Shown: piece by piece, positions 46,141 through 64,000 of the stretch
Position numbering within the stretch: the stretch's first letter is position 1
Layout of the letters: each line of letters opens with the position of its first letter
DNA from: Sinohyriopsis cumingii
Lineage: Eukaryota > Mollusca > Bivalvia > Unionida > Unionidae
Reading direction: 5' to 3'
Assembly (NCBI GenBank): GCA_028554795.2
Contig: CM068830.1
Location: forward strand, 43,449,337-43,513,336
Length of the DNA stretch: 64,000 bases
Notes under the pieces: model-generated
What the model was told of the DNA's origin: nothing
What the model saw: the letters and a program-made list of their open reading frames with translations, nothing else
Databases searched by the model: none
Program-made: the position numbers and the translations under genes

Positions 46141-46149
46141 CGCCGAGAG

Positions 46150-47560: not shown

Positions 47561-47650
47561 TTAATCAGAAAGAAAGACGGGACGAACCCTTTTTTCATTG
47601 ACTTTCGGCAATTGAACAAAATCACCGTGTTCGACGCAGAACAGTAGTGA
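47550..47650 (+). pseudogene. Start of reverse transcriptase, cut off
   Basis: The + strand reads FPVVLIRKKDGTNPFFIDF and then RQLNKITVFDAE, the first conserved block of a gypsy RT, and ends with TAG at about 47645. It follows the integrase in a shifted frame. Everything after the first RT block is absent and replaced by minisatellite. Confidence 0.75.
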
Positions 47651-47990: not shown

Positions 47991-48055
47991 TTTTTTAAAT
48001 TTTTTTAAAAAGGGGTAGGCAATGGAAAGTCAATCTCTTTTCGAGAAATGTGGGT

Positions 48056-48071
48056 GGCCCTGAAAAGGGCC
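48056..48071 (-). terminator. Histone-type 3' stem-loop
   Basis: On - this is GGCCCTTTTCAGGGCC: a 6-bp perfect stem with a TTTC loop. It is preceded by ACCAAA and followed by ACCCA (48051-48055), both matching the metazoan histone mRNA consensus. After 13 bases comes a purine-rich GAAAAGAGAT block (48035-48044) at the place of the histone downstream element bound by U7 snRNA. It starts 23 bases after the stop of the 193-aa gene. I infer cleavage after ACCCA without polyadenylation. Confidence 0.85.
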
Positions 48072-48094
48072 TTTGGTTTCATCATCATCTTCTT

Positions 48095-48676
48095 TTATTT
48101 CCTCCACTTCTGTAGCCATCCTCTTATTTTTTCCATCGATCCTTTCTTCTTCTTCTTTTCTGTTTCCGGTATCCAGTCCGGGTGACCCATGGCTCGGAAC
48201 TTTTGTTGGATTTTTATCCAGTTAGCGTTCAGTTTCTCTAGTTCTTCCTTTATCTTTCTATTTTCTTCTTCTTTTCTATCTTTTGCCCACCTGTCCTTTA
48301 TTTTCTCCACTTCTTCATCTATCACCTTTCTCATCTTTTCTTCCCCTTTTTTCAATCTTTCAACACTCCTTTTGACAAAGGGCCACTCTGACCTTTTTTC
48401 TATCTCTTCCAAAAACCTTCTTACTTCTTCTACCTTCTCCAGGGCCTCTTTTAATGTTCCCACTCTGACATAAGGGGGATTTATTAGCCCTCTCAGTCTC
48501 TTCACTTCTTCTTCAATTAATCCTTCTATCATCTCCCTGGCTAATTTTAGTTCGTTCACATAGTGCACACTGGTTCTTAACCTCCAATCTCTTTCAATCC
48601 TTTCAACTCCATATTCACCATCCACCATCCAAAAATAAACATGCCTTAAATCACTGAACAGTTGGGACACTTCCAT
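48095..48676 (-). CDS. Helical coiled-coil protein with histone-type 3' end
   Basis: Encodes 193 aa. It starts at ATG 48676, about 50 bases downstream of a TATAAG box and the shared promoter motif. The N-terminal 60 residues are aromatic and hydrophobic (LRHVYFWMVDGEYGVERIER). Then a segment YVNELKLAREMIEGLIEEEV resembles the start of the two neighbouring short proteins. The rest (about 90-175) is Lys/Glu-rich and predicted by eye to be long helices. It ends in a basic tail, IRGWLQKWRK. It has no signal peptide, membrane segment or catalytic motif, and no histone fold is recognisable. The function is unknown. The gene lies furthest left in the viral element, followed at once by a histone-type stem-loop. 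An accessory or regulatory role is inference from position. Confidence 0.75.
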   Translation of the reverse strand: MEVSQLFSDLRHVYFWMVDGEYGVERIERDWRLRTSVHYVNELKLAREMIEGLIEEEVKRLRGLINPPYVRVGTLKEALEKVEEVRRFLEEIEKRSEWPFVKRSVERLKKGEEKMRKVIDEEVEKIKDRWAKDRKEEENRKIKEELEKLNANWIKIQQKFRAMGHPDWIPETEKKKKKGSMEKIRGWLQKWRK

Positions 48677-48726
48677 CTTCTTTTTTATTCTTTGTAGAAT
48701 GGTTTGAACATCAAACCTTGTGGGTT

Positions 48727-48764
48727 CTTATAGTGAAAGCGCGGACGTGAAGGAACACATCCCC
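48727..48764 (-). promoter_or_regulatory. Shared promoter motif plus TATA, copy 1
   Basis: On -: GGGATGTGTTCCTTCACGTC continuing into CGCGCTTTCA, then CTATAAG at 48727-48733, 51 bases before the ATG at 48676. The ~30-base upstream motif is nearly identical before two other genes that carry the same 3' stem-loop. Confidence 0.8.
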
Positions 48765-48784
48765 TACTTTTCTCATTTCATATA

Positions 48785-49245
48785 ATATACTATCCACATA
48801 AGTGAAGCAACATTTAACAAACCCCAAATCTACTATTTACACACGCAAATCATTAAAACTAAATCCATAATCTACTATCCACACAATCGTACGTGAGTGG
48901 TTACAAAACCCAAACTATACTCTCCACATACGCTAAGAAACAATAAACAAATCCATAATCTACTATCCACATAATCGTACGTGAGCGGTTACAAACACAA
49001 ACACACAAACACAAACACACAGACACATACGCTAAGAAACAATAAACAAATCCATAATCTACTATTCACACAATCGTACGTGAGCGGTTACAAAACCCAA
49101 ACTATACTCTCCACATACGCTAAGAAACTATAAACAAACCCTTAATCTACTATTCACACAAACTTACGTGATCGGTTACAAACACAAACACACAAACACA
49201 TACACTCACACTATGAAAAAAGAGACAGTGTTTATATTCACACTA
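48785..49245. repeat. Tandem repeat, unit about 90 bp, between stem-loop genes
   Basis: Four to five diverged copies containing tccataatctactatccaca, a cgtacgtgagcggttacaaa core (near 48888, 48986, 49075 and 49165) and catacgctaagaaacaataa. (CA)-rich insertions vary the length. Another copy of the core is at about 49955. No coding potential. Possible enhancer, origin or recombination footprint. Confidence 0.75.
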
Positions 49246-49301
49246 CTCTACCTACACACATTGGCAAATCGATTGTTATTTCTTTTCTAGAGTATTGGGG
49301 T

Positions 49302-49317
49302 AGCCCTGAAAAGGGCT
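49302..49317 (-). terminator. Histone-type 3' stem-loop
   Basis: On -: AGCCCTTTTCAGGGCT, a 6-bp stem with a TTTC loop, followed by ACCCCA and, 13 bases after the stem, AGAAAAGAAA as HDE-like block. It starts 28 bases after the stop of the 101-aa gene. Confidence 0.8.
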
Positions 49318-49345
49318 GTTGGTTTTTAACTCCAGATGCACCTAT

Positions 49346-49651
49346 CTAATGCTGGCACTTTCCTGGCCTGGCGCCACACACACATCTTCTTCCCCAGTCT
49401 CTTTTCACTCTTTTGTGGCGAAGAGCAGAGGCTGGATATGTGGCTTCAGAATCCCAATTTTCTGTCTCTGGGATTCTGAAATTTCTTCTCTCCTTTTCCT
49501 CCTCTTCTTTTTTTCTTCTTTCCTCCTCCTCTCTCATCCTTCCCTCTTCGACAATGGCCTCTGCGGCCAGTTCGTTCAACAGGCGCCTGGCATATTCCAG
49601 GTGCATCTGGAGTTCTAGAAGCTTCACAATTCTGGTATTCATTCTCTTCAT
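49346..49651 (-). CDS. Short helical protein with histone-type 3' end
   Basis: Encodes 101 aa from ATG 49651; an alternative ATG three codons later at 49642 gives 98 aa. The start RIVKLLELQMHLEYARRLLNE is an amphipathic helix resembling the start of the next gene to the right (KLVKLNEAYVNLHRVRHSLI). It is followed by AAEAIVEEGRM and a Glu/Arg/Lys repeat (residues ~38-58), then a C-terminal part with two close Cys (RRCVCGARPGKCQH). Function unknown. TATAAA and the shared promoter motif lie 40-78 bases upstream, and a histone-type stem-loop follows the stop. The two neighbouring genes have the same layout, so I regard the three as duplicated cassettes that have diverged. Confidence 0.75.
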   Translation of the reverse strand: MKRMNTRIVKLLELQMHLEYARRLLNELAAEAIVEEGRMREEEERRKKEEEEKERRNFRIPETENWDSEATYPASALRHKRVKRDWGRRCVCGARPGKCQH

Positions 49652-49690
49652 CAATCAACAAGGGTAGCTAGACTGCCCAGCGAGTTTCAA

Positions 49691-49729
49691 TTTATAGTAA
49701 AAGCGCGGACGTGAAGGAAAACATCCCCC
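49691..49729 (-). promoter_or_regulatory. Shared promoter motif plus TATA, copy 2
   Basis: On -: GGGGATGTTTTCCTTCACGT continuing into CCGCGCTTTTA, then CTATAAA at 49691-49697. It precedes the ATG at 49651 by 40 bases. A weaker, decayed copy (cgcggacctaaaagaaacac) lies next to it at about 49772-49792. Confidence 0.8.
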
Positions 49730-50098
49730 TAAAACAAAATTGATCTTACCTAGATCATGACCAAAATAACGCGCGGACCTAAAAGAAACACTCACTCACT
49801 TTTTTATACTACCCATTACTATTCTAAAAAAAATTTCATTAATCACTTCAATATACTATCCACATACGCAAAGCAATCCAATCAAACCCCCAAATCTACT
49901 CTCCCCACACCTCAAACAGTCAAAAACATGATCTTAATCTACTATCCACACCAACGTACGTGAGCACTTACAAACACACAATCCTATACACAAACACATA
50001 CCCTCTCACTATAAAAAAGAGTTAGTGTTTATATTTACACTACTCTACCTATACACATTGGCAAATCGATTGTTATTTCTTTTCTAGAGTATTGGGGT
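49730..50098. repeat. Spacer with decayed promoter copy and duplicated 3' flank
   Basis: Holds no gene. From about 49955 to 50114 it repeats 49160-49317 closely: a cgtacgtgagc core, CA-rich stretch, tgtttatatttacactactc, then cattggcaaatcgattgtta and the stem-loop. This shows that the cassette's 3' flank was duplicated together with the gene. Confidence 0.75.
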
Positions 50099-50114
50099 AG
50101 CCCTGAAAAGGGCT
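50099..50114 (-). terminator. Histone-type 3' stem-loop
   Basis: The same 16 bases as the copy at 49302 (AGCCCTTTTCAGGGCT on -), followed by ACCCCA and AGAAAAGAAA after 13 bases. It starts 26 bases after the stop of the 119-aa gene. Confidence 0.8.
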
Positions 50115-50140
50115 GTTTTTTTTTGTTGTTTTTTTGTTTG

Positions 50141-50500
50141 CTATGGCAATCTTTTAGTTTCTAAGAATGCGACGTCCTCTGAGGACAGTCTTTCTGACGA
50201 TAGGTCTGCTTCTTCGGAAATATGACAATCGACAAAGCCTCTGTCAGGTTCAGGTTCCTGCTGCTGCTGCTGCTGCTGCTGTTGTTGTTGTTGCTGTTGC
50301 TGCTGTCTCGGAAGTCTGTACTTCTCTGTCCATTCTTCTTTCTCCCTGTTCACTTCTTCTCTGAAGAGCTCTTCTATCGGGTCTTCAGTGACTTTTAGCA
50401 TTCTCACATTCTCTATCTCTTCTGGCTTCGGTATCAGACTGTGTCTGACCCTGTGCAAATTCACGTAGGCTTCGTTTAGCTTAACTAGTTTGGAGCACAT
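50141..50500 (-). CDS. Short helical protein with poly-Gln, histone-type 3' end
   Basis: Encodes 119 aa from ATG 50500. An open frame extends 43 codons upstream without a stop but runs through the promoter motif, so I choose the internal ATG (MCSKLVKLNEAYVNLH). Layout: N-terminal amphipathic helix related to that of the 101-aa neighbour; a charged region (DPIEELFREEVNREKEEWTE); a Gln run of about 16 residues coded by a cag/caa microsatellite; and an acidic Ser/Glu-rich C-terminus (ISEEADLSSERLSSEDVAF). The Gln run would vary easily in length. Function unknown. It has the shared promoter motif upstream and a stem-loop downstream. Confidence 0.7.
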   Translation of the reverse strand: MCSKLVKLNEAYVNLHRVRHSLIPKPEEIENVRMLKVTEDPIEELFREEVNREKEEWTEKYRLPRQQQQQQQQQQQQQQQQEPEPDRGFVDCHISEEADLSSERLSSEDVAFLETKRLP

Positions 50501-50554
50501 CTTCGTAAGAGGATGAGTCGACAATGGATGGTTAGACTGGAAACTGCCCCGGTT

Positions 50555-50594
50555 CTTAAAGTCAAAGCGCGGACGTGAAGGAAAACATCCCTCT
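50555..50594 (-). promoter_or_regulatory. Shared promoter motif, copy 3
   Basis: On -: GGGATGTTTTCCTTCACGTC continuing into CGCGCTTTGA and CTTTAAG at the TATA position. It is 55 bases upstream of ATG 50500. Confidence 0.75.
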
Positions 50595-50720
50595 ACGGTT
50601 TTCGAGCCGCAACGTTCAATGAGTGTCATGAGAGGGATAGTAAGAAGTCAAAGAGCATAAATCAACATTCTTATAGCCAAACAAACCACAAAGGCATTTT
50701 TTTTTCAAAACACAACATTT

Positions 50721-50726
50721 TTTATT
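50721..50726 (-). terminator. Poly(A) signal AATAAA
   Basis: AATAAA on -, 236 bases past the stop of the 160-aa gene and before the first stem-loop gene. It would end the transcript of that gene, and possibly of the capsid genes, in the normal polyadenylated way, in contrast to the stem-loop genes. Confidence 0.5.
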
Positions 50727-50961
50727 CAAAATCACTTAACATTAACCAACAACTCTAACATTTTTTAACAATAATCCAACAATATAACATCAAACATTTT
50801 TTTCAAATGACAAACATTTTTTTCAATTTACACTCTACTTTAAACAGGGTTGGCAACGTTGTGAATAAAATGGTGATTTCCACTGTTGCAAGTCATTGAA
50901 TCATGGATGGACACTACGTTTCCTAGCTGAAGACAACAAAATAAGCATACTAGTTACAAAA

Positions 50962-51444
50962 TCAACGATTTACTTTCTCATCGTTTCTAGAAAAATCACG
51001 ATCAAAATAAGTCACTAAATGTTCTTTTGCTGATAATAAGTGATCAATTTCGATCTCGACTTTCTCTTTGAATTTGTCAAAGAGGGCTTTGATGTAATGG
51101 ATGTCTCGAGTCGTTAATGGAGGACAGAAATGTTCACGCAAGTCTTTATACCACCAACGTAACACGTCTCTTTTAAACAGACTCCAAGCTTCGTCCAGAT
51201 ATTCGTTGAATTTTTCTTCTTGACTGATGTTTTGACATCCATAGTAATCATGCTTCATCCATATCGTAATTGTGTCTGCCAGGTATGTAGCACAGTAGGA
51301 GACCAATTGCTGTTCTTGTTCTGGACATCTCGACTTGATCACGATGTCCTTTTCGTCTCTGTGTTGGGATTCTCCTTCCACGGTCTCCTCACATTCCATC
51401 TTCAAAGCTTCTCCACTAGGTAAAGAGGGAGAACAGTCTTCCAT
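50962..51444 (-). CDS. Unknown 160-aa viral protein
   Basis: ATG 51444, just 5 bases after the end of the MCP coding region (stop 51450). The N-terminal 40 residues are acidic (MECEETVEGESQHRDEKD). The remainder is helical with many aromatic and Cys residues: YCATYLADTITIWMKHDYYG, AWSLFKRDVLRWWYKDLREH, LFDKFKEKVEIEIDHLL. No signal peptide or membrane segment. I do not recognise the family. A TATAAAA lies at 51579-51586 inside the MCP 3' part. It ends before an AATAAA and not a stem-loop, so it is regulated differently from its left neighbours. An LxCxE motif was looked for and is absent. Confidence 0.7.
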   Translation of the reverse strand: MEDCSPSLPSGEALKMECEETVEGESQHRDEKDIVIKSRCPEQEQQLVSYCATYLADTITIWMKHDYYGCQNISQEEKFNEYLDEAWSLFKRDVLRWWYKDLREHFCPPLTTRDIHYIKALFDKFKEKVEIEIDHLLSAKEHLVTYFDRDFSRNDEKVNR

Positions 51445-51449
51445 AGCTT

Positions 51450-52758
51450 CTAATAGTCTAGACTGACTTCTCTCAAACTGTTGATTTCTATCGTATTATC
51501 GAATTCTGCATACAGGATGACGTTCACTGTCTTGTCCAGTGGTTCTGTAAACTGAAGTTCCACACGAATCTGGCCAGATTTTATAGGGTGGAAATGTCCC
51601 TCGTCGCTGCCCTGGTCTGGAGTGAAATCGAAAGCTCACAAAGCATAGCCTCCTGCGTAATCTTCGTACGTAATGCCGTGACTGGTGTTGGTCCCTAACT
51701 GTCCGGTGGCTTCGTACAAGGACAAGTACGATCTCAAGTAATTCATTTTATTGGGAGAAAAGTTAGGTTCGAAAGGTCTGGTACACAAGGTCTTGCCATC
51801 GCGACTGACTTCGATTTTCTTCACGTTGAAGTGTTGAAAGTTGAAAGGATTTTCTTTGAAGGCTCCGTTGAAGGCTGAATTCAGGACCATACCAAGGATT
51901 AAACGCTTGGGTAACTGTCCTTGAAACAGATGATCTTCGATCATGGAATGATGGTTAGCGGGAATGGTGAACGTTTTCACTTCCACACGTCGTATGGGAT
52001 ACTTGGCGGTCGTTCTGCTCAACGTTTGACTGATGCCATTTCCCACTTTGGGTAACACTTCCACGCGTCGTACGTAGAGTTTGACGTCCTCGATTTGGCT
52101 TTTAGGATTGCCATCAGCAGTATCAGCCAACAAATGGAAAGCGGTACTGCTGAGATTCAGTCTCAAGCGAACATTTACCCCGTTCAGCAAATATTTCTCT
52201 TGCAACCACATGTCCAAATGCAAACGATCCATCAGTTCTAAACTGTTCTTATTTAAGATTATTTTTTTGTCTTTCCTCAAAGCCGTCATTGCTTCCATCT
52301 ATTTTGTCGAACTTGCCCGCTTCGTCAGGTTCCCATAGCACACAAGCATTGAGATGAGTATTCTTGGCATCTATTCCGTACGTCAAGAGATTTTCCAGGT
52401 AGGCACGATAAGGGTAGGTATCCATGCTGCTGCTGAGCAGTTTGTTATTCAAGTACAAGTCCACTGAGCTGAACAAGGAATGCATGAAATTGTTGACGGG
52501 AGCTATATTCTCAGTGTCTTCTACTGCACCATCATCCTTATCTAGAACTTTGACTTTCAAGTACAAGTAACTGCTATTCAGATCGATGTAATCTTCGGGC
52601 TGTCCCTTGATTTCAAACTCGATGGGAGCGGAATCGGTCAGTGAGGAGACGGGGTGAAATTCCACCCACTGGGATTCTTGCATGGTCATCATGGTGGGCG
52701 GCATGGCAAACAGATCCAGTTCCGACTTGGAACAGGCGCATGACTCTCGGTGCATCAT
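51450..52758 (-). pseudogene. MCP: Major capsid protein (double jelly-roll), frameshift and in-frame stop
   Basis: Hexon-like double jelly-roll MCP of Polintons/adintoviruses; its trimers would form the icosahedral shell. From ATG 52758 the frame shows SAPIEFEIKGQPEDYIDL, HSLFSSVDLYLNNKLLSSS and YPYRAYLENLLTYGIDA, typical of the first jelly roll. The frame changes in an A7 run (on -) at about 52262-52268. The second frame continues with LHLDMWLQEKYLLNGVNVRL, RRVEVKTFTIPA and LPKRLILGMV. A TGA at 51636-51638 interrupts it. The same frame then continues for 62 codons to TAG at 51450 with the expected C-terminal part (IRVELQFTEPL, VNVILYAEFDN). Total length (~436 codons) is in the normal range. 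Indel at a homopolymer could be an assembly error; the TGA is harder to explain that way. Confidence 0.9.
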
Positions 52759-52775
52759 TTTTTTGTTGCTGTGTC

Positions 52776-53201
52776 TCAATAATCAAAAACGTCTAAGTCT
52801 CGAACGGTTCTTCTTTTCTTGGCCTTTCTAGTTTTAGAAGTGTGAAGTCTGGTGAAAGAGTGTTTTCTTCGTCGTCTCTTTCTGCCTTGTCCTTGCTGAA
52901 TGCCTGACTCGGTAGCGTGCAGGGCATTTATAGGTGTGTCTCGTTGGCCCAAAAGGTCTTTACCCGTTTGCAGCAAGACATTTTTGCCTGCCCTCATGAA
53001 AGCTTCTTTAGGGTTTTGTTTGTCGATGATGACATTTTGGAGAAATTCTTTGCCTTGCGTCAGTGCCGCATCTTTCAAGGCGTGCAATCCGCGTGTCACC
53101 ATCGGTTTCAACACCTGAGCCACCGAACGAAAGGCCGATTTTAACATATCTCCTAAACCGTGTCCTCGCTGTCGAGCAACCCCTCGGTACACTGGATACA
53201 T
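52776..53201 (-). CDS. Basic pX-like core/minor virion protein
   Basis: 141 aa from ATG 53201, 3 bases after the penton stop at 53205 and 17 bases before the MCP start. The N-terminus has Arg/Gly-rich RGVARQRGHGLGDMLKSAFR, which resembles the processing-site/pX-type region of adenovirus and adintovirus core proteins. The middle is helical (HALKDAALTQGKEFLQNVII). The C-terminal part is strongly basic (QGRKRRRRKHSF, KTRKAKKRR), as expected of a DNA-binding virion protein with nuclear localisation signals. The pX-like name is based on composition, position between penton and MCP and the RG..G motif. It is a moderate call. Confidence 0.7.
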   Translation of the reverse strand: MYPVYRGVARQRGHGLGDMLKSAFRSVAQVLKPMVTRGLHALKDAALTQGKEFLQNVIIDKQNPKEAFMRAGKNVLLQTGKDLLGQRDTPINALHATESGIQQGQGRKRRRRKHSFTRLHTSKTRKAKKRRTVRDLDVFDY

Positions 53202-53204
53202 GAC

Positions 53205-54161
53205 TTACGAATCGTGAGAGAACCGTTTTCGAAAATGGAGTTTCACCGTGACGTTTCTTTTGGTGAATGGAATATTTTGTCCCAAATCTCCTTTTATAGC
53301 AATGTTGACCGTGTCCAAATACGACTTGCTGACAGGCAAATAGTGAGGATGTACAAATTCGCGGTGAACGTGGTAAGTGTTTCCACCTTCCTCGTCAGTG
53401 GCCGTGGCAGAATTTACTTTGAAATGAATGACACGCAGTAACGGCACGGAGGTGTGTCCCACCACGTTATACTCCACCACATCGGAGTACACGAAGATCA
53501 AATTCAGTCCCTGGTTCAGTTCTACCGGGAAACGAAAATACCTCGCAAAATGCCCGTTGTTGTCAATGTCTGCTATGTGAATCTTTTTGGTCTGCTTATC
53601 CGTGACCAAATTGAGGTCTCCACCCAAAATGTCATACAATTCTGGGCAAAATTTAATACGTATACTTCTATCCTCACTTTCAAATTTGATGAGTAGACGG
53701 TGAGACTGTTTGTGGTACTCCATGGTGACACGTTTATTTAGTTTGGTCAGAACTTTGTCAAATGCTGCATAGAATTTGTCAGCGATGGCCTCCACCAGAT
53801 GTTGACCACTAAAATAATGGCCTGAGTTAATTTTAAAGTGATAAATGTAAAAAGGAGGAGAAGTGTCACTGCTGTGGAGTATTGGGGTCTTGGGAAGTGA
53901 TTTATGTTGAGAAGCGGTCGTCATGGTTTGCTGCACTGTTGGGTCCAGAATTTCGACGTCAAAAGTGTTTTGAGTTTCAGTGATGTTTTTGATTTGTGTT
54001 GGGTGAATCATTTCTACCAAAACCACTTCCCAATGGGCTTCGTGATCTAATGGGATGGCCTGAGGTAATTTGGCCGTGTAACAGCACAACGTGTTGTGGG
54101 GAAACACCTCCATGGAACTGTCACTGGGTAAGGTTAAGTAAAATTGGTTTTGGTGACTCAT
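53205..54161 (-). CDS. Penton-like minor capsid protein (single jelly-roll)
   Basis: 318 aa from ATG 54161, which overlaps the TGA of the upstream membrane-protein gene as ATGA. The start FYLTLPSDSSMEVFPHNTLC and LPQAIPLDHEAHWEVVLVEM is the typical Polinton/adintovirus penton opening (LPS..S...P.N....F/Y...LP..I.L.G.W.VaL.E). Later parts include FKINSGHYFSGQHLVEAI, RLLIKFESEDRSIRI and NLIFVYSDVVEYNVVGHTSV, the latter typical of this protein (YSD....Q.VG....PLLR). It would close the fivefold vertices of the capsid. No frame damage. The gene lies with pX and MCP in a capsid block. Confidence 0.9.
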   Translation of the reverse strand: MSHQNQFYLTLPSDSSMEVFPHNTLCCYTAKLPQAIPLDHEAHWEVVLVEMIHPTQIKNITETQNTFDVEILDPTVQQTMTTASQHKSLPKTPILHSSDTSPPFYIYHFKINSGHYFSGQHLVEAIADKFYAAFDKVLTKLNKRVTMEYHKQSHRLLIKFESEDRSIRIKFCPELYDILGGDLNLVTDKQTKKIHIADIDNNGHFARYFRFPVELNQGLNLIFVYSDVVEYNVVGHTSVPLLRVIHFKVNSATATDEEGGNTYHVHREFVHPHYLPVSKSYLDTVNIAIKGDLGQNIPFTKRNVTVKLHFRKRFSHDS

Positions 54162-54568
54162 AATTCCAGAGTTCTGTGGCTGTCCGAGGGGTTACTGGAC
54201 GTCAGAGGCGTGTCTCTGCCCAAAATGGGGTTCTGGTTGTGGTTGGAGTGGTGGCTGGCACTGGCACTGGACACAAGGTTTCCGTGGTTCACGTTCGAGG
54301 AGAATTTCAGGGAGGGATTGGGAAGTAGGTAACCGATGCAACTGCTCAATAAAATGGTCCACAATTGTTTGTCTCCTTGTTGCAAACTCAAATTGGCGAT
54401 GATTGCCCCGATGACACAATACACCACGAAGATTTGGCAGAAAAAGACGATTTGCGTTTTAGGCACACGTTCTCCACACCACACCCACAAAGGTTGTTTT
54501 TGTAAATCTTGTACAGAAGATCTAGGTGAAGGAGTGGTCGACGTAGCTGCGTCTGTGTGAAAGGGCAT
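54158..54568 (-). CDS. Small two-TM membrane protein
   Basis: 136 aa from ATG 54568; an earlier GTG at 54577 is less likely. Two hydrophobic segments: IVFFCQIFVVYCVIGAIIAN (about residues 40-62) and LWTILLSSCIGYLLPNPSL (about 70-90), separated by a short polar loop with GDKQ. The C-terminal 45 residues are Ser/His/Asn-rich and probably disordered. A small protein with this second-TM wording occupies the same place, between integrase and penton, in other Polinton-type elements as far as I recall. Its role (membrane anchoring, entry or release) is not known. Its end overlaps the penton start by 4 bases. Confidence 0.7.
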   Translation of the reverse strand: MPFHTDAATSTTPSPRSSVQDLQKQPLWVWCGERVPKTQIVFFCQIFVVYCVIGAIIANLSLQQGDKQLWTILLSSCIGYLLPNPSLKFSSNVNHGNLVSSASASHHSNHNQNPILGRDTPLTSSNPSDSHRTLEL

Positions 54569-54573
54569 GATGG

Positions 54574-55681
54574 TCACTTCTTTTTATAGTCGATGACTTG
54601 CGAAGCGTCGATCCAAGAATCAAATTGGGTGGATATCCTTTCCAACGTATTTTGACTTCTTTGACACGTCGTTTGCCTACTTTACGGGTTCTGCGTTCGA
54701 GAATGCTTTCGATGTCGTACACGTCGTCTTCTTTTTTGGTGACACGTTGTAACTCGGGCAAATAAAACGTTCCTTTGAGCACTTCTCCGTTCATGTCATC
54801 CAATTTATAGACGGCAGGATGAGGGCCATGCACTCGTCCAGTGACACGAAACAATTCGGTCGTCCAGTTAGGTAAGTAACCTTTGTCGAAAGTGCGCTTG
54901 GCTTTGCCAATGCGCACCCAATCTCCTACGGCCAACATTCCACTTTTCTTGGGGACAGCCCTCGTCGGGGACGTACCAAACAGGCATTCAAACAGCAGCA
55001 CTTCGTTGTCGGGAGTCACTTCTTGCGGGGCACGTCCGATGCTTCGATGGTAAAATTGGTTGTACGCTTGCACCAGGTGCGGTAAGATGTCGATGTACTT
55101 CAGAGTGTGGTGATGCGTAAAATATTTCCACATGCGTTCTTTCAAAGTACGTTGAAAACGTTCCACGATGCTGGCTTTGGTTTCGAGATTCTCTGTGGCA
55201 AAAAATGAATGTCACGTTTCTTTAATTCTTTTTGGAAAGCTTGGTTCAGAAATTCGGTGCCTTTGTCCGTTTGCCATCGAAGAGGGTGACGACCGCTTTG
55301 TTTCAACACCCGTTGCAGGGCTCGCACTAACTCGCTGCTCGATTTGGAAGTCAAGGGCACGACCCAGGCAAATTTGGAAAAGACGTCGATGACACAAAAC
55401 AAATATTTGTAGCCACGATTGTAGCTGGCCAAATGAGAGACATCGGCTAAATCGGCTTGCCATTGATGATCGATGCCTTCCACTCGGGTGCGACTTCTGG
55501 TAAACTTGCGTCGAATGGGTTTGTGTAAAGTGTAGGTAGCTTGTTCTTGTAACCATCGTTGCGCTTGAGGTAAACGGAGACTTTTCAGTCGCATTTTGGT
55601 AGCACGATACAATTTTTGAACTCCTGCGTAACCTGCAGGATGCGAGGGATCGTAGTAAATGCTGGCTAAGACTTTTTCCAT
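54574..55681 (-). pseudogene. int: Retrovirus-like integrase with chromodomain, two frame changes
   Basis: Starts at ATG 55681 (MEKVLASIYYDPSHPAGYAG). N-terminal helix region, then the rve core: HQWQADLADVSHLASYNRGY gives the first catalytic Asp, WQTDKGTEFLNQAFQKEL the second, and the Glu region follows in the next frame (RTLKERMWKYFTHH, AYNQFYHRSIGRAP). The C-terminal part is SH3-like (GDWVRIGKAKRTFDKGYLPN) and a chromodomain (VYDIESILERRTRKVGKRRV, IRWKGYPPN). Frame is lost at an A/T homopolymer at 55200-55205, just before the catalytic Glu region, and again near 54622-54624 inside the chromodomain end. The expected stop is at 54574. The enzyme would insert the element into the host genome. 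It was probably recently intact. Confidence 0.9.
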
Positions 55682-55698
55682 TTTTTTGTGTTTGTGTG

Positions 55699-56318: not shown

Positions 56319-56362
56319 GGGGTTGTCAGGGGTCGATTCTGAGATCTTGGGACTTCCGAGGG

Positions 56363-56372
56363 CCTTTTTATC
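56363..56372 (-). promoter_or_regulatory. TATA-like box before the coiled-coil gene
   Basis: GATAAAAAGG on -, 45-54 bases upstream of ATG 56318, at the same distance as the other viral TATA boxes. Non-consensus first base. Confidence 0.4.
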
Positions 56373-56756: not shown

Positions 56757-56810
56757 ATTTGAGTCTTCAGGAGCACCAAAAAACACTGATACCCTACTTG
56801 GTTACACACC

Positions 56811-56820
56811 TTTTTTATAC
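56811..56820 (-). promoter_or_regulatory. TATA box before the small GG-protein gene
   Basis: GTATAAAAAA on -, 55-64 bases upstream of ATG 56756, overlapping the end of the 306-aa gene. Confidence 0.6.
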
Positions 56821-57735: not shown

Positions 57736-57774
57736 GTTCAAAATGTGTGTGAGACAGACGAAAAGGGTCTGAGG

Positions 57775-57783
57775 TTTTTATAG
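57775..57783 (-). promoter_or_regulatory. TATA box before the 306-aa gene
   Basis: CTATAAAAA on -, 40-48 bases upstream of ATG 57735. Confidence 0.6.
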
Positions 57784-57802
57784 ATTTTTTTGTGGAGTGA
57801 AA

Positions 57803-58531
57803 TTAAGTCGAGGACGGAGACGTGTACAGGACAGGCCCTCCGTCTTGGCCCCAGTGGTGAAACAAGTGGGTACGAAATCGCAAATCCTCGGGGGTCGTAG
57901 GTTTCAAATCGACGAGTAAATAGGCGTGTGGAGTTTGAGTGGCATCGTCGTACGCCTGAGTCAGCCAAGGTGTCCCTAACTGTTTGGCTAAGACTTGCAC
58001 TTTCGATTTATCTCGAGGGCTTTTAAACAAGACCACGTAATGCGCATTGAGACTGATGGTGCGATGGGCTTTACTTTGTTGAAACAAATTTTGGGTGATG
58101 TAAACGACACTGGCATTACGGTGATGCCCTTTGCGCGTGAACCATAGTTTAATTTCTTCTTCGTCTTCTCCTAACATGTCGTCAAAAATGACCAAATGGG
58201 TTTGACGGGAGTCAGAGACGATGCCGTCGTCTTCTTTAGGAATGCCTTCCACAAACACGATGGAATCGCCTTGACTTTCTCGCAAGAGGCTGTACGCCGA
58301 TTGCCACTCTTTGTAACACCACACGATCCGCTGAGGTGGCCAATCGATCAAATGATGTTTATGTTCGATCAAACGTTTGACGAATTCGGTTTTGCCTGAA
58401 CCGCTAGGTCCAGCAATGAGCATGTTAAAGGGATGGCGAAGATACAAAGCCTCCCAACTGGCACGATCTAAGTGTTCGTCGATGACTTTGACAGTAGAGG
58501 AAGAGGGAGCAGAGACAGCAGAGGTAGCCAT
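57803..58531 (-). CDS. FtsK/HerA-type genome-packaging ATPase
   Basis: 242 aa from ATG 58531. Walker A is MLIAGPSGSGKTEFVKRLI (about residues 37-55). Walker B is HLVIFDDMLGEDEEEIKLWF (about 111-130), with the acidic DD and nearby Glu. A sensor-like block, SVVYITQNLFQQ (about 140-151), ends in Gln as in this family. It would use ATP hydrolysis to pump viral DNA into preformed capsids and is a hallmark of Polintons/adintoviruses and their relatives. Length is normal for this small A32/FtsK-like group, and no frame damage is seen. It has its own TATA box. Confidence 0.92.
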   Translation of the reverse strand: MATSAVSAPSSSTVKVIDEHLDRASWEALYLRHPFNMLIAGPSGSGKTEFVKRLIEHKHHLIDWPPQRIVWCYKEWQSAYSLLRESQGDSIVFVEGIPKEDDGIVSDSRQTHLVIFDDMLGEDEEEIKLWFTRKGHHRNASVVYITQNLFQQSKAHRTISLNAHYVVLFKSPRDKSKVQVLAKQLGTPWLTQAYDDATQTPHAYLLVDLKPTTPEDLRFRTHLFHHWGQDGGPVLYTSPSST

Positions 58532-58577
58532 AGTGTCAGGAATGTCACTTGTGACACGAAAACGAACAAGACGAGAG

Positions 58578-58585
58578 TTTATATA
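58578..58585 (-). promoter_or_regulatory. TATA box before the ATPase gene
   Basis: TATATAAA on -, 47-54 bases upstream of ATG 58531. Confidence 0.65.
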
Positions 58586-58601
58586 ATTTTTTCAGAAAAC
58601 G

Positions 58602-58607
58602 TTTATT
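58602..58607 (-). terminator. Poly(A) signal AATAAA
   Basis: AATAAA on - lying directly upstream of the ATPase TATA box. It would serve the small 62-aa gene and probably PolB. Confidence 0.5.
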
Positions 58608-58767
58608 GAATGTTTTAAACATGAATACGAAAGACAAAAAATACATAAAAGCCAAAGGCTTAAGTACAACGATAAAAGGCACATGTTAACCATCAACGTG
58701 GAATAAACACAAGTGTCTGTACAACATGTTTTGGGTAATGTTCTGACCAGTTCTATAGGGGGTAAGG

Positions 58768-58956
58768 TCACACAAGTGTCCTCCCGAAAGGGCCTTTCAG
58801 GCCTGTCCACGACAGTCCTGGGTGACGGGTTCTTCTGGCACCGTCACTAACACAGGTTGAAAAGTCGCAAGGCTCCCAATCGCATTCCACTTCAGAAGCC
58901 CCACACTTGAATTGTGCCTTTCTAAACTTGTTTTGTGTTTCTCTGAAAGTATTCAT
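58768..58956 (-). CDS. Small Cys-containing ORF (62 aa), own promoter
   Basis: ATG 58956 (MNTFRETQNKFRKAQFKCG). It contains four Cys in 20 residues (FKCGASEVECDWEPCDFSTC) and a basic GARRTRHPGLSW segment. Alone it would be doubtful. However, a strong TATA box (TATATAAAAAA) lies 56 bases upstream, inside the end of PolB, and AATAAA follows, so a transcript here is likely. Adjacent frames after the Cys cluster are also open, so a frame change could hide a longer C-terminus. Function unknown. Confidence 0.45.
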   Translation of the reverse strand: MNTFRETQNKFRKAQFKCGASEVECDWEPCDFSTCVSDGARRTRHPGLSWTGLKGPFGRTLV

Positions 58957-59001
58957 CTTGTTCACTTGGTCTTGGTAGTCACAATGAACTATATATCTTG
59001 C

Positions 59002-62000
59002 CTAGGGTTCCTTTTTTATATACAGACCAATACCGACGGGTCCATACGGTAAGGTGAAATGATTGGAAAGTCGCACTCGCTTCTGGTACACGATTTGATA
59101 GACTTTTTCCAAGGGTCGACTGACGATGTGGTGAGTGGGTAAATGTACAATCTTGATCGGTTGATAGGTGGTCACTTTAAAGTGTTCATCTTCTCCCGAT
59201 TGCAAGGCTTCTTTCAATACCCCAAAGTTGACCACACGACTAGTACGATAATTCAGAGTCAATCCTTTCAGTTTACACGTCGTGTGCACTTCTCCTTGTG
59301 GGTCCCGGTATCCGTAGCCGTAATTTTTGGGACCGCCACTGACGAAACTTAGAATCTTGTCGTCGGGATGCTCGTCTGTCCAGGCTCCTAAGCGGTCTCC
59401 TTCGATGACAGGGTGCTGTTGACTCGGGTGATGGATGTAAATGCAACTGTCCGTGTCAAAGTACAGGACACGTTCCCCTAACAGTTCTAAAGCTTCGTAC
59501 AATTTTAAGCGAGCATGAGCTGTCACGTAAGCCGCAATGATGACATTTCCAAAAGGGTCGTCTTGTACAAAGTCCAAATCTTCTTCGTAATTGACCAAGA
59601 TCAAATCCTCTCGAACGACGTCCACGTGTTTCATGTATTTGGTTTTGTCGTGAATCATTTGGAAGTAGCGGGAAGGTTCTGTCAAATATTCCGTCTTGGG
59701 TAAACACGGTCGTTGTGCCATTTTACCCCACAAGCAATTTAACATCACTTTGGCAAACGATCGCCTGCCTTCGTTTTTCTCGATGTGGTCTAAAGAGATG
59801 CCTTCTTGTTCATAGTATTTCTCTTTGAATGTCTTTTCGTCTTTGGAAGTGTGACACCAGGAAGGATAGCCGCTGGCTTCTTGCTTCAGTTTCAAAAAGG
59901 CATCCACGTAGTCTGCGAAAATGCCTTTCTGACTGGGGTCACCCTTGTGGTATTGTTGTGTCCTGGGAAAGTGGCAAATTTCGTACACTTCTAACAGTTG
60001 GTATCCCATGTCCAGAGCTTTGAACAATTCTACGCTGACCCACGTCCCCGTCAAGGCCCGTTCTTCCTGGGTGTGCTGACAAGGTTGGTCTTGGTTGCAC
60101 GTTTCGGCACAAGTACGGCACAAAGGAAACATCAGTTTGCCTTGGCAATGGTGAGGTAAGACGGGATGGTACAAGTCCGTGGGAGGCAAAACTTTACACT
60201 TGATCAAGCCTTCGTATTGTCGAATGTTTTTCAGGTCGATGTGTTCCGTCAGCAATTGCGGGTACCCTGCAGAAAAGTGACAATATTTGCACACGTAGGG
60301 ATACAGCGAACACACGTCCAAGTATTTGATTTCTTCTCCTTTCTCTTCGTCGGCTTGGTACAGCAAACAGGTGGCATTGGTCCTTCCTCCGTACAAACTA
60401 TCCCTCGGGTTCAGCGGGTCCATGAACTGGTAACTTTCCACGAGGCGTTTAAATTCGGGATCGGTTTTCATACGGTGATCGTATTCGTGTTCCCACATTT
60501 CCACCACTTGGTATCCTTCCTGTTCCAACTTTAGGCGTCGCTTACAAGTGTCCTGGTACAAGTCTTCCATGGTTCGTTGTAAAAACTGATTTTTAGTGCT
60601 ACGATCAGGGTAACAGACGGGACATCCGTGAAATAAGCAACCGTTAAACTCGTACACGATCTTGGGGTTTTCTAAGTCCCAGCCATCGACCGAATACGTT
60701 CCGATGGTCTTTTCACCCCCTCCGTTGCGGGCATGCTGAATCCACTTGTCTTCCTTGTCGTACAAGTAATGTAACCAACGTAGGGCTTTGACCGAGTATT
60801 GACGTTTGACAAAGTGGGTCGTTTGAGGACTGATGACAGCCACGGTGTTTTCAGGCATGAATCGTTGTCGATACACTAAGGAACACGCTTTGGCAATGGT
60901 GCAAGCTTCTTTAAAAGGATCGACCCCTCCGTGTTCCATGAACAGTTCTCGAAATTTTCCACAGCAACGCCGTAAAATGTCCACGTCGGAACGACAATAC
61001 TTTAACATTTCTTCCTTAAAGTCGAAAGGGTCCGAGGCGTGAGCCTGGTACCAAGCGTAGAAAGCTTCTCGTTGTTCGGTACGCATGTTGTCGGGGTCGT
61101 AATAGTGAGCCTCAGGTAAATGGGGTAGAACGGCGTGTTGATTGGCTTCCGTATTGAAAAAGTGTGGAAAGTACCCTTTAGCCATTTCTGTCATTCCAAA
61201 CGTTTTAGGCATTCGACTCAAAGGCATGGCCAAAGAGCTCATCGAATCTTTAAACTGCACTTGTCCCACTTGCATGAAAATGATTTTGGCTCCGTTCAAA
61301 GTGACTTTAGGACGTTCGGTGCCTTGTTCCGTATAGTATCTCAAAAGAAACTGTCCATCGTATCCGGAGAAATTGTGAGCCATCACTGTGGCATGACGAT
61401 GACAATCTCCGTAACGTTCGATGTCCTCTTGGCTCCACGTCTTGTCGATGGGGTCTAAGACCCATTGGGCAAAATCGGCTAACGTGTTCGGTCCTCGAAA
61501 GATTTTTTCACGCCCTCCGGGAATCTTACTGCAGTGAGGACAATGACTGAAGATAGGTTCCTGAATACACTTCTCGCACGCTCGATGAGCCACGCAGAAA
61601 GTAAGAATGTGAATGCCGGTCTCTTGCATGCATTCGAAATCAAAAAAGATGAAATTGCCTTTCTTCTTGTGACCGTCCTCTTTCTCTGGTGGGGGTTGGT
61701 ATTTTTGCACGTGGCATTCGTGTTCCAAGTCCACGATGTGGTGACAAATGTGACTTTTTTTTCCTGAACATACGTGTGTCTTGGTACTGTTGGTACGTAG
61801 GCCTTGTCCACACGTAGGGCACAATCTCAGCAGTTGACAAGCACATTTCTGCTGTGAACCTAGCGTCTTCAGATGTTGTTGGTAACAGGCAGAGCTGACA
61901 AACGTGCGCAGACAAGCAGGACAATGTACTCTTTCTTGTCCTTCGCTCAGACAGGGTGGAGAGGCCAAACATCCTGGGCATTTCCATCCGCAGTGTTTGT

Positions 62001-63046
62001 GTTGCTCTCGATTGTTATAGCCATAGTCACATTTCTCACAATAATAACCATATCCCAGGAATCCGGTGATAATGGTAATGGTATCGAAATGGTCATCGTG
62101 ATAATAGACATGAATGTATTTTCCGTCCTTAAAGTCGTTCCCTCGAAACAACAGAGGTCCGCGCATTTCTTGAGGGTGCACTTTCAAGGTGTAGAGTGGA
62201 GCTAGGACATCTTGCAATTTTTGCATCTCAGGAATGCCACAGGGTGTGTCTTTGGACAGTCCGGCTTGTTGTAACAGGAGTTCTGCTTCATTTCGTTGTT
62301 TGGCTCGGTCCGATTTTCGAATATTCTCCCAGGCTCTTTTCCATTCTACCGTCTCGTTCTTGTAGGCATAGGTTCGTCCCACCACGGGCTAAACACATCT
62401 GGTCTTGAGAATTGTGAATTCGGACGAGACTTGTTTTGGTGTTGCGAAGGCCGTCCACCAATAAGACCTTTTTGCGTCCAGTCCCTTGAGGAGGAGAGAC
62501 GTTGGCCATTTTCAGTGTGGCTTTACCATCGGTGATGTCAAACTGATCATTAGATTGTTGTACGTGTTGAATCTTGTCCATGACTTTGGAAGGGGTTAGT
62601 TCTGCGGGTCTGCTAAACTCGATCCAAACAGGGGATTTCAGGCTGTCGTGATCTATGGATAGTGTCAAGCAATCGTCTTCTTTGGGTTGACATTGTCGCT
62701 TGAGTGCGGTGAGCAAAGAATCCCACATCTCGGTGATAAACCCTTCTGCTTTCTCCAATGGTACGTCGGACTTGAAATCTTTAAACTTCACTGTGTAGGT
62801 GTAAGCCGTGGTTCTAAATTTTCTAGAGGAGCGCTTTTCCGTCTCTCGAATGGAATAGTACTTTTCAGGGTTGACTAAGGGTGGTGAACTTTGTTTAGAG
62901 GGTTCGGATTCTGGTTCACTCATGTCCTCTTCAAAATCACTGGCATGAATTTGTGCCAAGACTTCAGCTCTGGTACGAGGCGATAGATCACGTTTCTGCC
63001 TCTTACTTTCTTCTTCTTTCGTCTCGAATGAATAGGATCGTTTCAT
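59002..63046 (-). CDS. polB: Protein-primed family B DNA polymerase, one frame change
   Basis: Starts at ATG 63046 (MKRSYSFETKEEESKR). The first ~220 codons end in NSQDQMCLARGG, where the frame changes at about 62386-62392; 1127 codons follow to 59002. Visible in order: Cys/His zinc-binding clusters (GYYCEKCDYGYNNREQ, RVHCPACLRTF; about 62035-61850), exonuclease FFDFECMQETG (about 61640), an endonuclease-like EFNGCLFHGCPVCYP (60610-60655), motif A YLDVCSLYPYV (about 60295-60325), motif B KVMLNCLWGKMAQRP (about 59715-59755), motif C YFDTDSCIYIH (59435-59465) and KLKGLTLNY (59255-59280). Catalytic Asp residues of motifs A and C and the first exonuclease acid are present. It replicates the linear genome from a protein primer. 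Total (~1350 codons) is normal for Polintons. Upstream TATA at 63095. Confidence 0.93.
59012..59024 (-). promoter_or_regulatory. TATA box before the small Cys ORF
   Basis: GTATATAAAAAAG on -, overlapping the last codons of PolB. Confidence 0.6.
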
Positions 63047-63094
63047 CTTGAGTGCAGAACGTCAAATGACTCAAGTTTAAACACCATAGACTAA

Positions 63095-63101
63095 TTTATA
63101 G
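63095..63101 (-). promoter_or_regulatory. TATA box for PolB
   Basis: CTATAAA on -, 49-55 bases upstream of ATG 63046. Together with the + box at 63118 it makes a divergent promoter of about 150 bases. Confidence 0.6.
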
Positions 63102-63117
63102 TCATGGCAAACCAGCG

Positions 63118-63126
63118 TATATAAAA
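63118..63126 (+). promoter_or_regulatory. TATA box for the zinc-knuckle gene
   Basis: TATATAAAA on +, 69-77 bases upstream of ATG 63195. Confidence 0.65.
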
Positions 63127-63194
63127 GGGTGTGTGTCTTGTCCTTTCACTATTCATTTCACTCTCAAACCGAGCACAACGAAGAGACTACCCAG

Positions 63195-63593
63195 ATGGAA
63201 CGTTTCATCAGAGCTTTGCGAGGGGTTATTAGAAAATTCTCTTCAGACCAGCCGACGGACTACTCTCCTTCCTTTCGAGATAAAAGTCAAGATACTTGCT
63301 ATATCTGTCAGAAGAAAGGGCATTGGTCTTCAGAGTGTCCAGACCGTCAAAAAAGAACAAATACAGGGACTAAAAGAGACAAAAGTCAAGATACCTGTTA
63401 TTATTGTAAAGAAAAAGGACATTGGTCTCCAGATTGCCCAAAAAAGAAACAAGAGGAGTCAGAAGAAAAGAGGGATTCTTCAGAAGAAGAGAGAGATTCT
63501 TCAGAGGAAGAAAGCAGCCAGGTGAAGAAAAAAAACAGGAGAAGAAAAGAAGAAGGGAAGAAAGTGAGGAGGAAGAGGAGGAAAAGACTGTGA
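63195..63593 (+). CDS. Double CCHC zinc-knuckle protein with acidic and basic tail
   Basis: 132 aa from ATG 63195 (MERFIRALRGVIRKFSSDQP). Two perfect CX2CX4HX4C knuckles: CYICQKKGHWSSEC (63298-63339) and CYYCKEKGHWSPDC (63397-63438). Each is preceded by DKSQDT, so a 99-base block was duplicated. Then comes a Ser/Glu repeat (KRDSSEEERDSSEEESS) and a Lys/Arg-rich end. Another open frame runs on to about 63660, so the last part could differ by a frame change. Knuckles of this type bind single-stranded nucleic acid (retroviral nucleocapsid, CNBP family). It is the only viral gene on +, divergent from PolB. Possible ssDNA/RNA-binding or gene-regulatory factor; capture from a retroelement is conceivable. 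Confidence 0.75.
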   Translation: MERFIRALRGVIRKFSSDQPTDYSPSFRDKSQDTCYICQKKGHWSSECPDRQKRTNTGTKRDKSQDTCYYCKEKGHWSPDCPKKKQEESEEKRDSSEEERDSSEEESSQVKKKNRRRKEEGKKVRRKRRKRL

Positions 63594-63599
63594 CGGTGA

Positions 63600-63874
63600 A
63601 GAATTTGAAAAAAAAAGAGAGAGTAAAAAAAAGAAACAGAAGAAGTGAATGTAATTTATAAAGTGTTCTGTTGTAAATTGTGAATTGGATTGTAACTATG
63701 GAGAAAAGAATACATTAATTATATAAGGTAAGTGTCTTTGAGTTTTGATTTTAAATAAGAAGCTACACTCACGCACTCATACACAGACACGTACTATAAG
63801 GGTAAAATGTGTTTTTTGTTGATTTTTGAGTTATTGGCAAATTGAAAGGCTATCTCTTTTCGAGAGAAGTGGGT
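63600..63874. other. Spacer between zinc-knuckle gene and stem-loop
   Basis: The Lys/Arg-type codons decay after about 63660. The spacer then holds ttattggcaaattgaaaggc (63829-63849), a relative of the cattggcaaatcgattg block found beyond the other stem-loops. No gene. Confidence 0.5.
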
Positions 63875-63890
63875 GGCCCTGAAAAGGGCC
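63875..63890 (-). terminator. Histone-type 3' stem-loop of a gene entering from the right
   Basis: On -: GGCCCTTTTCAGGGCC, identical to the copy at 48056. It has ACCAAAAAA upstream, ACCCA downstream (63870-63874) and GAAAAGAGAT 13 bases after the stem. Confidence 0.85.
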
Positions 63891-63911
63891 TTTTTTGGTG
63901 TAGGGGTGAGT

Positions 63912-64000
63912 TTAAGCAATCAACTTTAACTGCCTTAAGCCTTTGCCACTTCCGAGGCCTACTTCTGATGATGATGATTGGGTTGAAATCACTAAGGGTG
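63912..64000 (-). CDS. C-terminus of a further viral gene (partial at window edge)
   Basis: On - an open frame enters from the window edge and stops with TAA at 63912-63914, 22 bases before the stem-loop. The same spacing holds in the three complete stem-loop genes. The visible 28 residues are Ser/Gly/Leu-rich (SSSSEVGLGSGKGLRQLKLI). Protein family not recognisable. The frame is chosen by the stem-loop spacing, so this is an inference. Confidence 0.4.
   Translation of the reverse strand, partial: PLVISTQSSSSEVGLGSGKGLRQLKLIA

Follow-up and report, generated by a model that had tools for sequence, protein, structure and literature searches.

Five accessory, non-histone genes of a Polinton element in Sinohyriopsis cumingii are followed by histone-type stem-loops, and it is probable, judging from sequence, that the 3' ends of their mRNAs are formed in the histone manner through the SLBP and U7 of the host. 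The sequence signals, their placement, their conservation and the covariation of the stem-loops are demonstrated, and they suggest that the host histone mRNA machinery has been borrowed by the Polinton. The window, i.e., the whole analysed stretch of 64,000 nucleotides, contains four of the five stem-loops.

The Polinton element and its genes

The stem-loops of the window belong to one element of 17.7 kb. It is a Polinton, as the preliminary description had proposed, with terminal repeats, a 6-bp target duplication, a type B DNA polymerase (PolB), an integrase and an A32-like ATPase. The terminal inverted repeats are 440 bp long with 98% identity (441 aligned columns), and the duplication CAGAAC lies at 47637-47642 and directly after the right repeat. 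The boundary and core features are as follows.

47643..48082, no strand: left terminal inverted repeat, with its partner at L021:1127-1566 (window-equivalent 64927-65366)
54522-55133, minus strand: chromodomain-like piece (PF00385, E 3.7e-4, below cut-off)
55142-55681, minus strand: integrase core (PF00665, E 7.4e-15)
57803..58531, minus strand: A32-like packaging ATPase (PF04665, E 6.7e-8)
59002..62226, minus strand: PolB (PF03175, E 6.7e-40)

The Pfam matches to PF03175, PF00665 and PF04665 are all over cut-off, and the integrase core and chromodomain-like piece (54522..55681, minus strand) are split over two frames. For the candidate capsid genes at 51636-54161, Pfam gave no match above cut-off; in the copy at L044, one N-terminus is presumably protease-like. 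The terminal repeats, the 6-bp target duplication, PolB, the retroviral-type integrase and the A32-like ATPase are shared with Polinton/Maverick elements and adintoviruses, whereas the five accessory genes with putative histone-type 3' ends set this element apart from the known ones. The copy in the window shows partial decay, and the fifth of its stem-loops is weakened.

The accessory gene set consists of genes of 193, 101 and about 119 aa on the left and of 185 and 76 aa on the right. The accessory genes in the window and the poly(A) signals are located as follows.

48095..48676, minus strand: 193-aa gene, product helical and charged, conserved in other copies
48723..48763, minus strand: promoter-like module of the 193-aa gene (repeat family D6)
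49346..49651, minus strand: 101-aa gene, the ORF before the 49302 stem-loop
50141..50629, minus strand: third left gene, a glutamine-rich 162-aa ORF
50721..50726, minus strand: AATAAA poly(A) signal 3' of the 50962-51444 gene, then a T/G-rich stretch
58602..58607, minus strand: AATAAA downstream of the polymerase region in this copy, the sole one of the examined copies to cover that position
63912..64000, minus strand: 3' portion of the 185-aa gene, the remainder of which runs on to window-equivalent 64469 (L021:112-669)

The stop codon of the 185-aa gene is at 63912 and its start is past the window end. Copies of the promoter-like module at 49687-49727 and 50551-50591 precede the other two left genes, and the module also occurs in other Polinton copies. 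The 162-aa ORF is probably a 119-aa gene with a putative start at about 50500, downstream of the module. Coding constraint is evident in two of the genes at least, those of 193 and 76 aa. The preliminary description had regarded these genes as non-histone, and a Pfam search of the five proteins likewise gave no match to a histone family. The single-sequence structure prediction of the 193-aa protein is helical, with a mean pLDDT of 57.3 that is too poor for a fold search; the PDB matches to this protein are all weak (best E 0.01).

AATAAA takes the place of a stem-loop in at least one core gene block, and the element would therefore have two 3'-end classes. The AATAAA of the 50962-51444 gene is retained in L167 and L168.

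The stem-loops and their purine blocks

The five stem-loops, with their scores against the Rfam Histone3 model (RF00032), are located as follows.

48056..48071, minus strand: stem-loop 3' of the 193-aa gene (41.8 bits), with GAAAAGAGAT 13 nt on
49302..49317, minus strand: stem-loop 3' of the 101-aa gene (30.1 bits, under gathering)
50099..50114, minus strand: stem-loop 3' of the third left gene (29.3 bits, under gathering)
63875..63890, minus strand: stem-loop 3' of the 185-aa gene (38.4 bits), with GAAAAGAGAT 13 nt on
L021:1133-1178, beyond the window: fifth stem-loop, 3' of the 76-aa gene, in the right terminal repeat (26.5 bits)

The four 16-base elements that had been reported on the minus strand, each with a perfect 6-bp stem and a TTTC loop, are exact: GGCCCT-TTTC-AGGGCC is read at 48071..48056 and 63890..63875, and AGCCCT-TTTC-AGGGCT at 49317..49302 and 50114..50099. 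Their 3' flank is ACCCA or ACCCCA, and a purine block, GAAAAGAGAT or AGAAAAGAAA, starts 13 bases past the stem at all four window sites, in agreement with the earlier reading. The distance from stop codon to stem is short and on the same strand as claimed; its range is 21-28 bases instead of the 22-28 given before (23, 28, 26 and 21 bases at the 48056, 49302, 50099 and 63875 sites, respectively). The purine block contains AAAGAG, named in an excerpt of PMC7026596 as the core that pairs with U7, or AAAGAA, the latter at the left 101- and 119-aa sites. At several sites an extra motif near TTTGCCAA comes after the purine block.

The Histone3 run that had been proposed as a check matched the four window sites with E-values of 1.8e-9 to 8.4e-5 (20 kb searched). 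The gathering cut-off of 34 bits is passed by two of the five sites (41.8 and 38.4 bits), and the other three (30.1, 29.3 and 26.5 bits) are significant and below it. The 49.3-kb and 50.1-kb stem-loops share a 112-bp duplication with 95% identity and are therefore not independent. The 48056 stem-loop is inside the left terminal inverted repeat.

The histone-type layout that had been recognised is thus borne out. As in replication-dependent histone mRNAs (RF00032, SLBP/U7), a 6-bp stem with G7 and a TTTC loop is followed, on the sense strand just past a stop codon, by an AC-rich 3' flank and, about 13 nt on, a purine block of the U7 type; order and spacing are fixed, the 3' UTRs are very short and the frames are uninterrupted. 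Unlike histone mRNAs, the genes match no histone family and lie in a virus-like transposon that also has at least one gene block with a poly(A) signal, and two of the left-gene site classes begin with an A-U pair.

The 18-base core GGYYCTTTTCAGRRCCAC occurs exactly 20,369 times in the 2.9-Gb host genome, against 0 occurrences of the reversed pattern. All 40 examined loci, out of 75 scored Histone3 matches in this genome, are copies of the Polinton; at L031, merely 579 of 9,000 bases align to the element. In the window and 41 loci, the purine block is present at 81 of 83 stem-loop sites, and 62 of the 83 are 15-30 nt past the stop of an upstream ORF. At the far ends, 3 of 13 expected sites were not found.

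Three other origins were rejected. Chance similarity is ruled out by the Histone3 scores and by the count of cores relative to the reversed pattern. Fragments of host histone genes are ruled out at the 40 loci examined, each of which aligns to the element, and a plain terminator hairpin is ruled out because the loop, the flank and the purine block are all specified.

Conservation, covariation and alternative explanations

Conservation of the stem-loops in related elements, on which the preliminary description had made its idea depend, is seen across many diverged copies and also in relatives that are more distant. At the 76-aa gene site, the differences per site are 0.026 in the stem-loop, 0.073 in the purine block and 0.204 in the spacer; at the 185-aa gene site, they are 0.044, 0.055 and 0.223, respectively, and the full form is present in 15 of 22 rows. 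The stem-loop of the 185-aa gene is scarcely better kept than the coding sequence (0.051) and the stop-to-stem gap (0.051), and conservation at anchor sites is inflated because the copies were found through the stem-loops. The pattern is also kept in 18 of 20 stem-loops at the 101-aa gene and 5 of 5 at the 119-aa gene, at sites found via the neighbouring coding sequence, where a pattern match does not test pairing.

These data bear on whether the signals are a passive relic, i.e., a host histone 3' end that was captured and spread by duplication and repeat exchange without a function. Such an origin is unlikely. Two left sites do represent a duplication, the terminal repeats are able to copy each other, and the right ends of the copies are fairly young, with a mean column conservation of 0.91. 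However, the spacer drifts while the stem-loop and the purine block are kept, and both right-end sites are shared with a relative of 69% DNA identity. Furthermore, in four relatives of the 193-aa gene, whose third codon positions are 41-56% different, the adjoining stem-loop is unchanged in three and has a single change in the fourth.

A functionless relic also does not account for the compensated stem pairs, G-C to A-U at pair 1 and C-G to U-A at pair 3. In the stem alignment, 97.9% of the cells are paired and 9 cells are doubly changed. The covariation score is higher than in any of the 500 shuffles or any slid control, in a set that includes three rows (L171-L173) chosen for being covariant; two measures are within the shuffles, namely pairs changed on both sides (172/500) and further pair types (489/500). 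G7 is invariant at all 24 chosen sites, and an excerpt of PMC10388802 describes it as the base that SLBP contacts specifically and requires.

That the stem-loop is a DNA-level palindrome for replication, packaging or recombination, which merely resembles the histone stem-loop, is quite improbable. It would fit the two sites, of five, that lie in the terminal repeats, as well as the motif near TTTGCCAA, which resembles a DNA-binding half-site. A palindrome, however, needs no TTTC loop, no one-sided AC flank and no purine block at a constant distance of 13 nt, and it leaves unexplained the sense orientation just past stop codons, the three internal sites and the invariant, strand-specific G7. 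It is very doubtful that the stem-loop RNAs instead titrate host SLBP/U7 and disturb histone supply rather than serve the five genes, a role that the number of exact cores would favour, but 62 of 83 sites keep the short histone-like distance after a reading frame, two or more of the genes (those of 193 and 76 aa among them) show coding constraint, and transcripts cannot be inferred from genomic copy number.

Predicted 3'-end formation and its significance

In the preferred reading, histone-type 3'-end formation of the five mRNAs, an RNA polymerase II transcript would pass the stop codon into the stem-loop, to which host SLBP would bind, and the host U7 snRNP would pair with the purine block, 13 nt past the stem. 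CPSF73 would then cut 4-5 nt past the stem, producing an mRNA end without poly(A). From such processing we infer that the five mRNAs would be stable and translated in S phase only.

Searches for the host factors in the host assembly had low power. RF00066 (U7) and PF15247 (SLBP) gave no match there, and their controls were silent too. A U7-like pattern had 17 occurrences and its control 43, none of the 17 being judged a U7-like fold, and a segment of human SLBP gave matches of E 2.85 and worse only. In IMG/VR, scans with the ATPase and PolB gave no viral relatives and the strict stem-loop pattern gave 0 matches; less strict patterns matched 3 and 101 stretches, with the AC flank and purine block in 0 of 104. 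The preliminary description knew of no such case in Polintons, and the literature searched yielded neither a precedent nor a paper joining Polinton and SLBP.

Viral histone or histone-like genes, such as bracovirus H4, also touch host histone biology. In those cases the proteins are histone-like, whereas here the resemblance appears to lie in the mRNA ends, the proteins having no match to a histone family. 'Histoid' genes are described for adomaviruses and tailtomaviruses in an excerpt of PMC11071296.

An excerpt of PMC7026596 states that no eukaryotic mRNAs other than the replication-dependent histone mRNAs are known to lack poly(A). Taken jointly, the sequence evidence tips slightly towards these being the first mRNAs known from non-histone genes, and the first known from a virus, to use the histone 3'-end pathway, in a genome divided into genes with poly(A) and a set of five with histone-type ends that is expressed mainly in S phase, with about 20,000 stem-loops for the host histone supply to withstand. 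If this is true, virus genes would break the rule that histone mRNAs alone lack poly(A), a DNA virus would have a new route to couple gene expression to S phase, and thousands of natural variants would be available to probe the requirements of SLBP and U7. So many genomic stem-loops also raise the question of whether the host must shield its histone supply.

Stem-loop genes of the Polinton element

The element at the right end of the window is about 17.7 kb long and continues past the window end, as seen in L021, a stretch of the host assembly (2.9 Gb in 1138 contigs). Its terminal inverted repeat at 47643–48082 is 98% identical to L021:1127–1566 (window-equivalent 64927–65366, counted on beyond the window end), and CAGAAC borders both ends as a 6-bp target duplication. 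Pfam matches in its coding regions identify a type B DNA polymerase (PF03175, E 6.7e-40), the core of an integrase (PF00665, E 7.4e-15) and an ATPase of the A32-like kind (PF04665, E 6.7e-8). Because of these repeats, the duplication and the three domains, the element, previously described as Polinton-like, is identified by sequence as a Polinton. The window copy is partly decayed, with some core genes broken across overlapping frames. Seven imperfect 36-nt repeats (TGGGTCACTCTAGGGACAATGG...) take up the outer portion of this terminal repeat (47653–47979).

Three accessory genes are read leftward at the left end (193 aa, 101 aa and a 162-aa ORF, in which the gene itself is probably 119 aa long), and two are divergent at the right end (185 aa leftward, 76 aa rightward); each has its own stem-loop, followed by an AC-rich flank, a spacer and a purine block. 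A promoter-like module with CACGTCCGCGC and a TATA-like box is common to the three left genes. Between the two right genes lie inverted CCAAT boxes and CACGTGACGTCA. Pfam gave no match to a histone family for any of the five proteins, nor any other match that passed its family's cut-off. The 76-aa protein is rich in arginine, and its C-terminus contains cysteine. Convergent with the 185-aa gene is another Polinton reading frame (132 aa; 63195–63593, plus strand), which encodes two CCHC zinc knuckles (PF00098, E 8.4e-14); from there to the end of the window the poly(A)-signal scan gave no AATAAA on the plus strand.

The covariance-model check proposed in the preliminary description was run as an Rfam scan of 44000–64000 with permissive filters. 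The four best matches were all Histone3 (RF00032, gathering cut-off 34 bits), and the four minus-strand stem-loops reported there were recovered exactly. The stem-loop sites are as follows.

Histone3 matches of the five accessory genes
48031–48076, minus strand: 193-aa gene, 41.8 bits, above the cut-off
49278–49322, minus strand: 101-aa gene, 30.1 bits, below the cut-off
50075–50119, minus strand: third left gene (162-aa ORF), 29.3 bits, below the cut-off
63850–63895, minus strand: 185-aa gene, 38.4 bits, above the cut-off
L021:1133–1178, beyond the window end: fifth gene, 76 aa (L021:889–1119; gene and match together window-equivalent 64689–64978)

The distance from stop codon to stem, reported as 22–28 bases, is 23, 28 and 26 at the three left sites, and the 21 bases at 63850 fall outside that range. 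The two weaker sites belong to a 112-bp duplication (95% identical), so the four stem-loops do not represent four independent events. Two of the stem-loops, those of the 193-aa and 76-aa genes, lie inside the terminal repeats and face outward. The window copy has a weakened stem at the fifth site (GGCCTTTTTCAGGGTC, 26.5 bits), and the full stem form is present at this site in 20 of 24 aligned right ends.

Conservation among copies and relatives

At the 76-aa site (24 rows), pairwise differences per site were 0.103 from stop to stem, 0.026 in the stem-loop (biased low, because most copies were chosen by that very stem-loop), 0.049 in the flank, 0.204 in the spacer, 0.073 in the purine block and 0.177 beyond it. 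The corresponding values at the 185-aa site were 0.051, 0.044, 0.054, 0.223, 0.055 and 0.109 in 22 rows, after removal of L013 and L039, copies that do not align there; with all 24 rows, the stem-loop (0.131) and purine block (0.136) approach the region beyond (0.149) and the contrast is masked. A bipartite signal would be expected to show this pattern, with a stem-loop and a purine block that stay conserved on either side of a spacer that drifts. The 185-aa stem-loop, with the full stem form in 15 of 22 rows, is conserved no better than the coding sequence of its gene (0.051).

When sites were located via neighbouring coding sequence, window included, the pattern held for 18 of 20 stem-loops of the 101-aa gene and for all five of the 119-aa gene. 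Eight stretches were taken at the opposite ends of stem-loop-anchored copies, of which five reached the end and three (L165, L166, L169) fell short. In these five, 10 of 13 expected sites were present, nine by Histone3 and one by pattern (L168); of the three missing ones, L163 lacked the site of the 76-aa gene and L164 that of the 185-aa gene, both in non-aligning surroundings, and L170 lacked that of the 119-aa gene.

The coding sequences were compared by differences at codon positions 1, 2 and 3. These were 0.22–0.29, 0.12–0.21 and 0.41–0.56 among four 193-aa relatives, and 0.14, 0.06 and 0.30 for the 76-aa gene; since third positions differ most, both genes bear clear signs of protein constraint. 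The near-equal values for the 185-aa gene (0.067, 0.074 and 0.083, all 24 rows) give such constraint no support there. The stem-loop is unchanged in three of the four 193-aa relatives and has a single change in the fourth. The latter belongs to a second, diverged Polinton copy (L021:6732–8864) that starts about 5 kb past the first and has an altered stem (GGGTC). In L044 (G000:C4:100898107–100902107), a 332-aa ORF ends at a stem-loop with a C-terminus as in the 193-aa gene; its start resembles an adenovirus-type protease, and the ORF is perhaps the product of an internal deletion.

Standard pairs fill 97.9% of the stem pair cells in 24 sites chosen to span different genes, element copies and relatives. 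Both bases have been replaced in nine cells: in six of them pair 1 went from G-C to A-U, and in the other three pair 3 went from C-G to U-A. Neither the covariation score nor the count of doubly changed cells was equalled in any of 500 shuffles or in any slid version; the test is inflated by relatedness, and the three U-A rows (L171–L173) were picked for showing that form. Two coarser measures did not rise above the shuffles (172/500 and 489/500). Position 7, the guanine contacted by SLBP (PMC10388802), is G in 24 of 24 sites, and position 6 is variable.

Conservation in related elements, the lack of which the preliminary description named as a refutation, was found in L171 and L172: related to each other and 69% identical to the window element at the right end, they have both right-end signals (34.7, 33.4, 29.8 and 29.3 bits). 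L173 (G000:C1:9689300–9691300) has a stem-loop of 40.7 bits and aligns with the ATPase region at 68% similarity along 461 columns; the stem-loop lies downstream of a gene, about 1.3 kb from the ATPase-like sequence. A motif close to TTTGCCAA occurs about 10–20 nt past the purine block at several sites of different genes (window, L171, L172, L173).

Abundance in the host genome

In a Histone3 search of the whole host genome, the best 75 candidates were scored and all were above the cut-off; among 14 control genomes, only Lactococcus lactis gave a match, below the cut-off. All 40 candidates examined of these 75 (20 loci returned by the search and 20 fetched) align to the element. The core GGYYCTTTTCAGRRCCAC occurs 20,369 times in the genome versus 0 for the reversed pattern, and the first 100 places listed include several minus-plus pairs about 1.1 kb apart, matching the spacing of the right-end pair. 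These samples suggest that most of the cores are located in Polintons; if the host uses this signal, its own histone genes must also contribute to the count. A pattern search of the window and 41 loci gave 83 stem-loop sites, of which 81 have the downstream purine block, 62 lie 15–30 nt past the stop codon of a preceding reading frame and 7 have no such frame.

Two predicted kinds of 3' end and the histone mRNA pathway

Downstream of the gene at 50962–51444 stands TTGAATAAAAAATG followed by a T/G-rich stretch, a poly(A)-type signal conserved in L167 and L168, the two other copies covering the site. A second AATAAA lies at 58607, downstream of the polymerase region, where the window copy is the sole copy covering the site. 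Judged by sequence, polyadenylation would serve at least one block of core genes, and histone-type processing the accessory genes. The 193-aa gene also has an AATAAA, at 48099, that overlaps its stop codon; it was read as chance because several other copies have TAGAAG there.

Host U7 and SLBP were not found in the assembly by weak searches, two of them with silent controls; the U7 pattern search relied on a guessed U7 sequence, and the SLBP protein search worked exon by exon. Among the matches listed from the open-access collection searched, none described mRNA ends of the histone type in Polintons or in any other virus, and no paper in that collection joined Polinton and SLBP; with the subscription literature mostly outside the search, this is weak evidence of absence.

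In the histone mRNA pathway, as described in PMC7026596 and PMC9756948, the stem-loop is bound by SLBP, U7 base-pairs through its 5' end with the purine core AAAGAG, and the cut is made by CPSF73 4–5 nt past the stem. Each signal of the element has the same order with fixed spacing. On this reading, the five accessory mRNAs would stop past the AC-rich flank and lack a poly(A) tail. In S phase, according to PMC12775136, SLBP increases about 20-fold, and histone mRNAs decay when the phase ends; since mRNAs of this pathway behave so, the stability and translation of the five accessory mRNAs would be largely confined to S phase.
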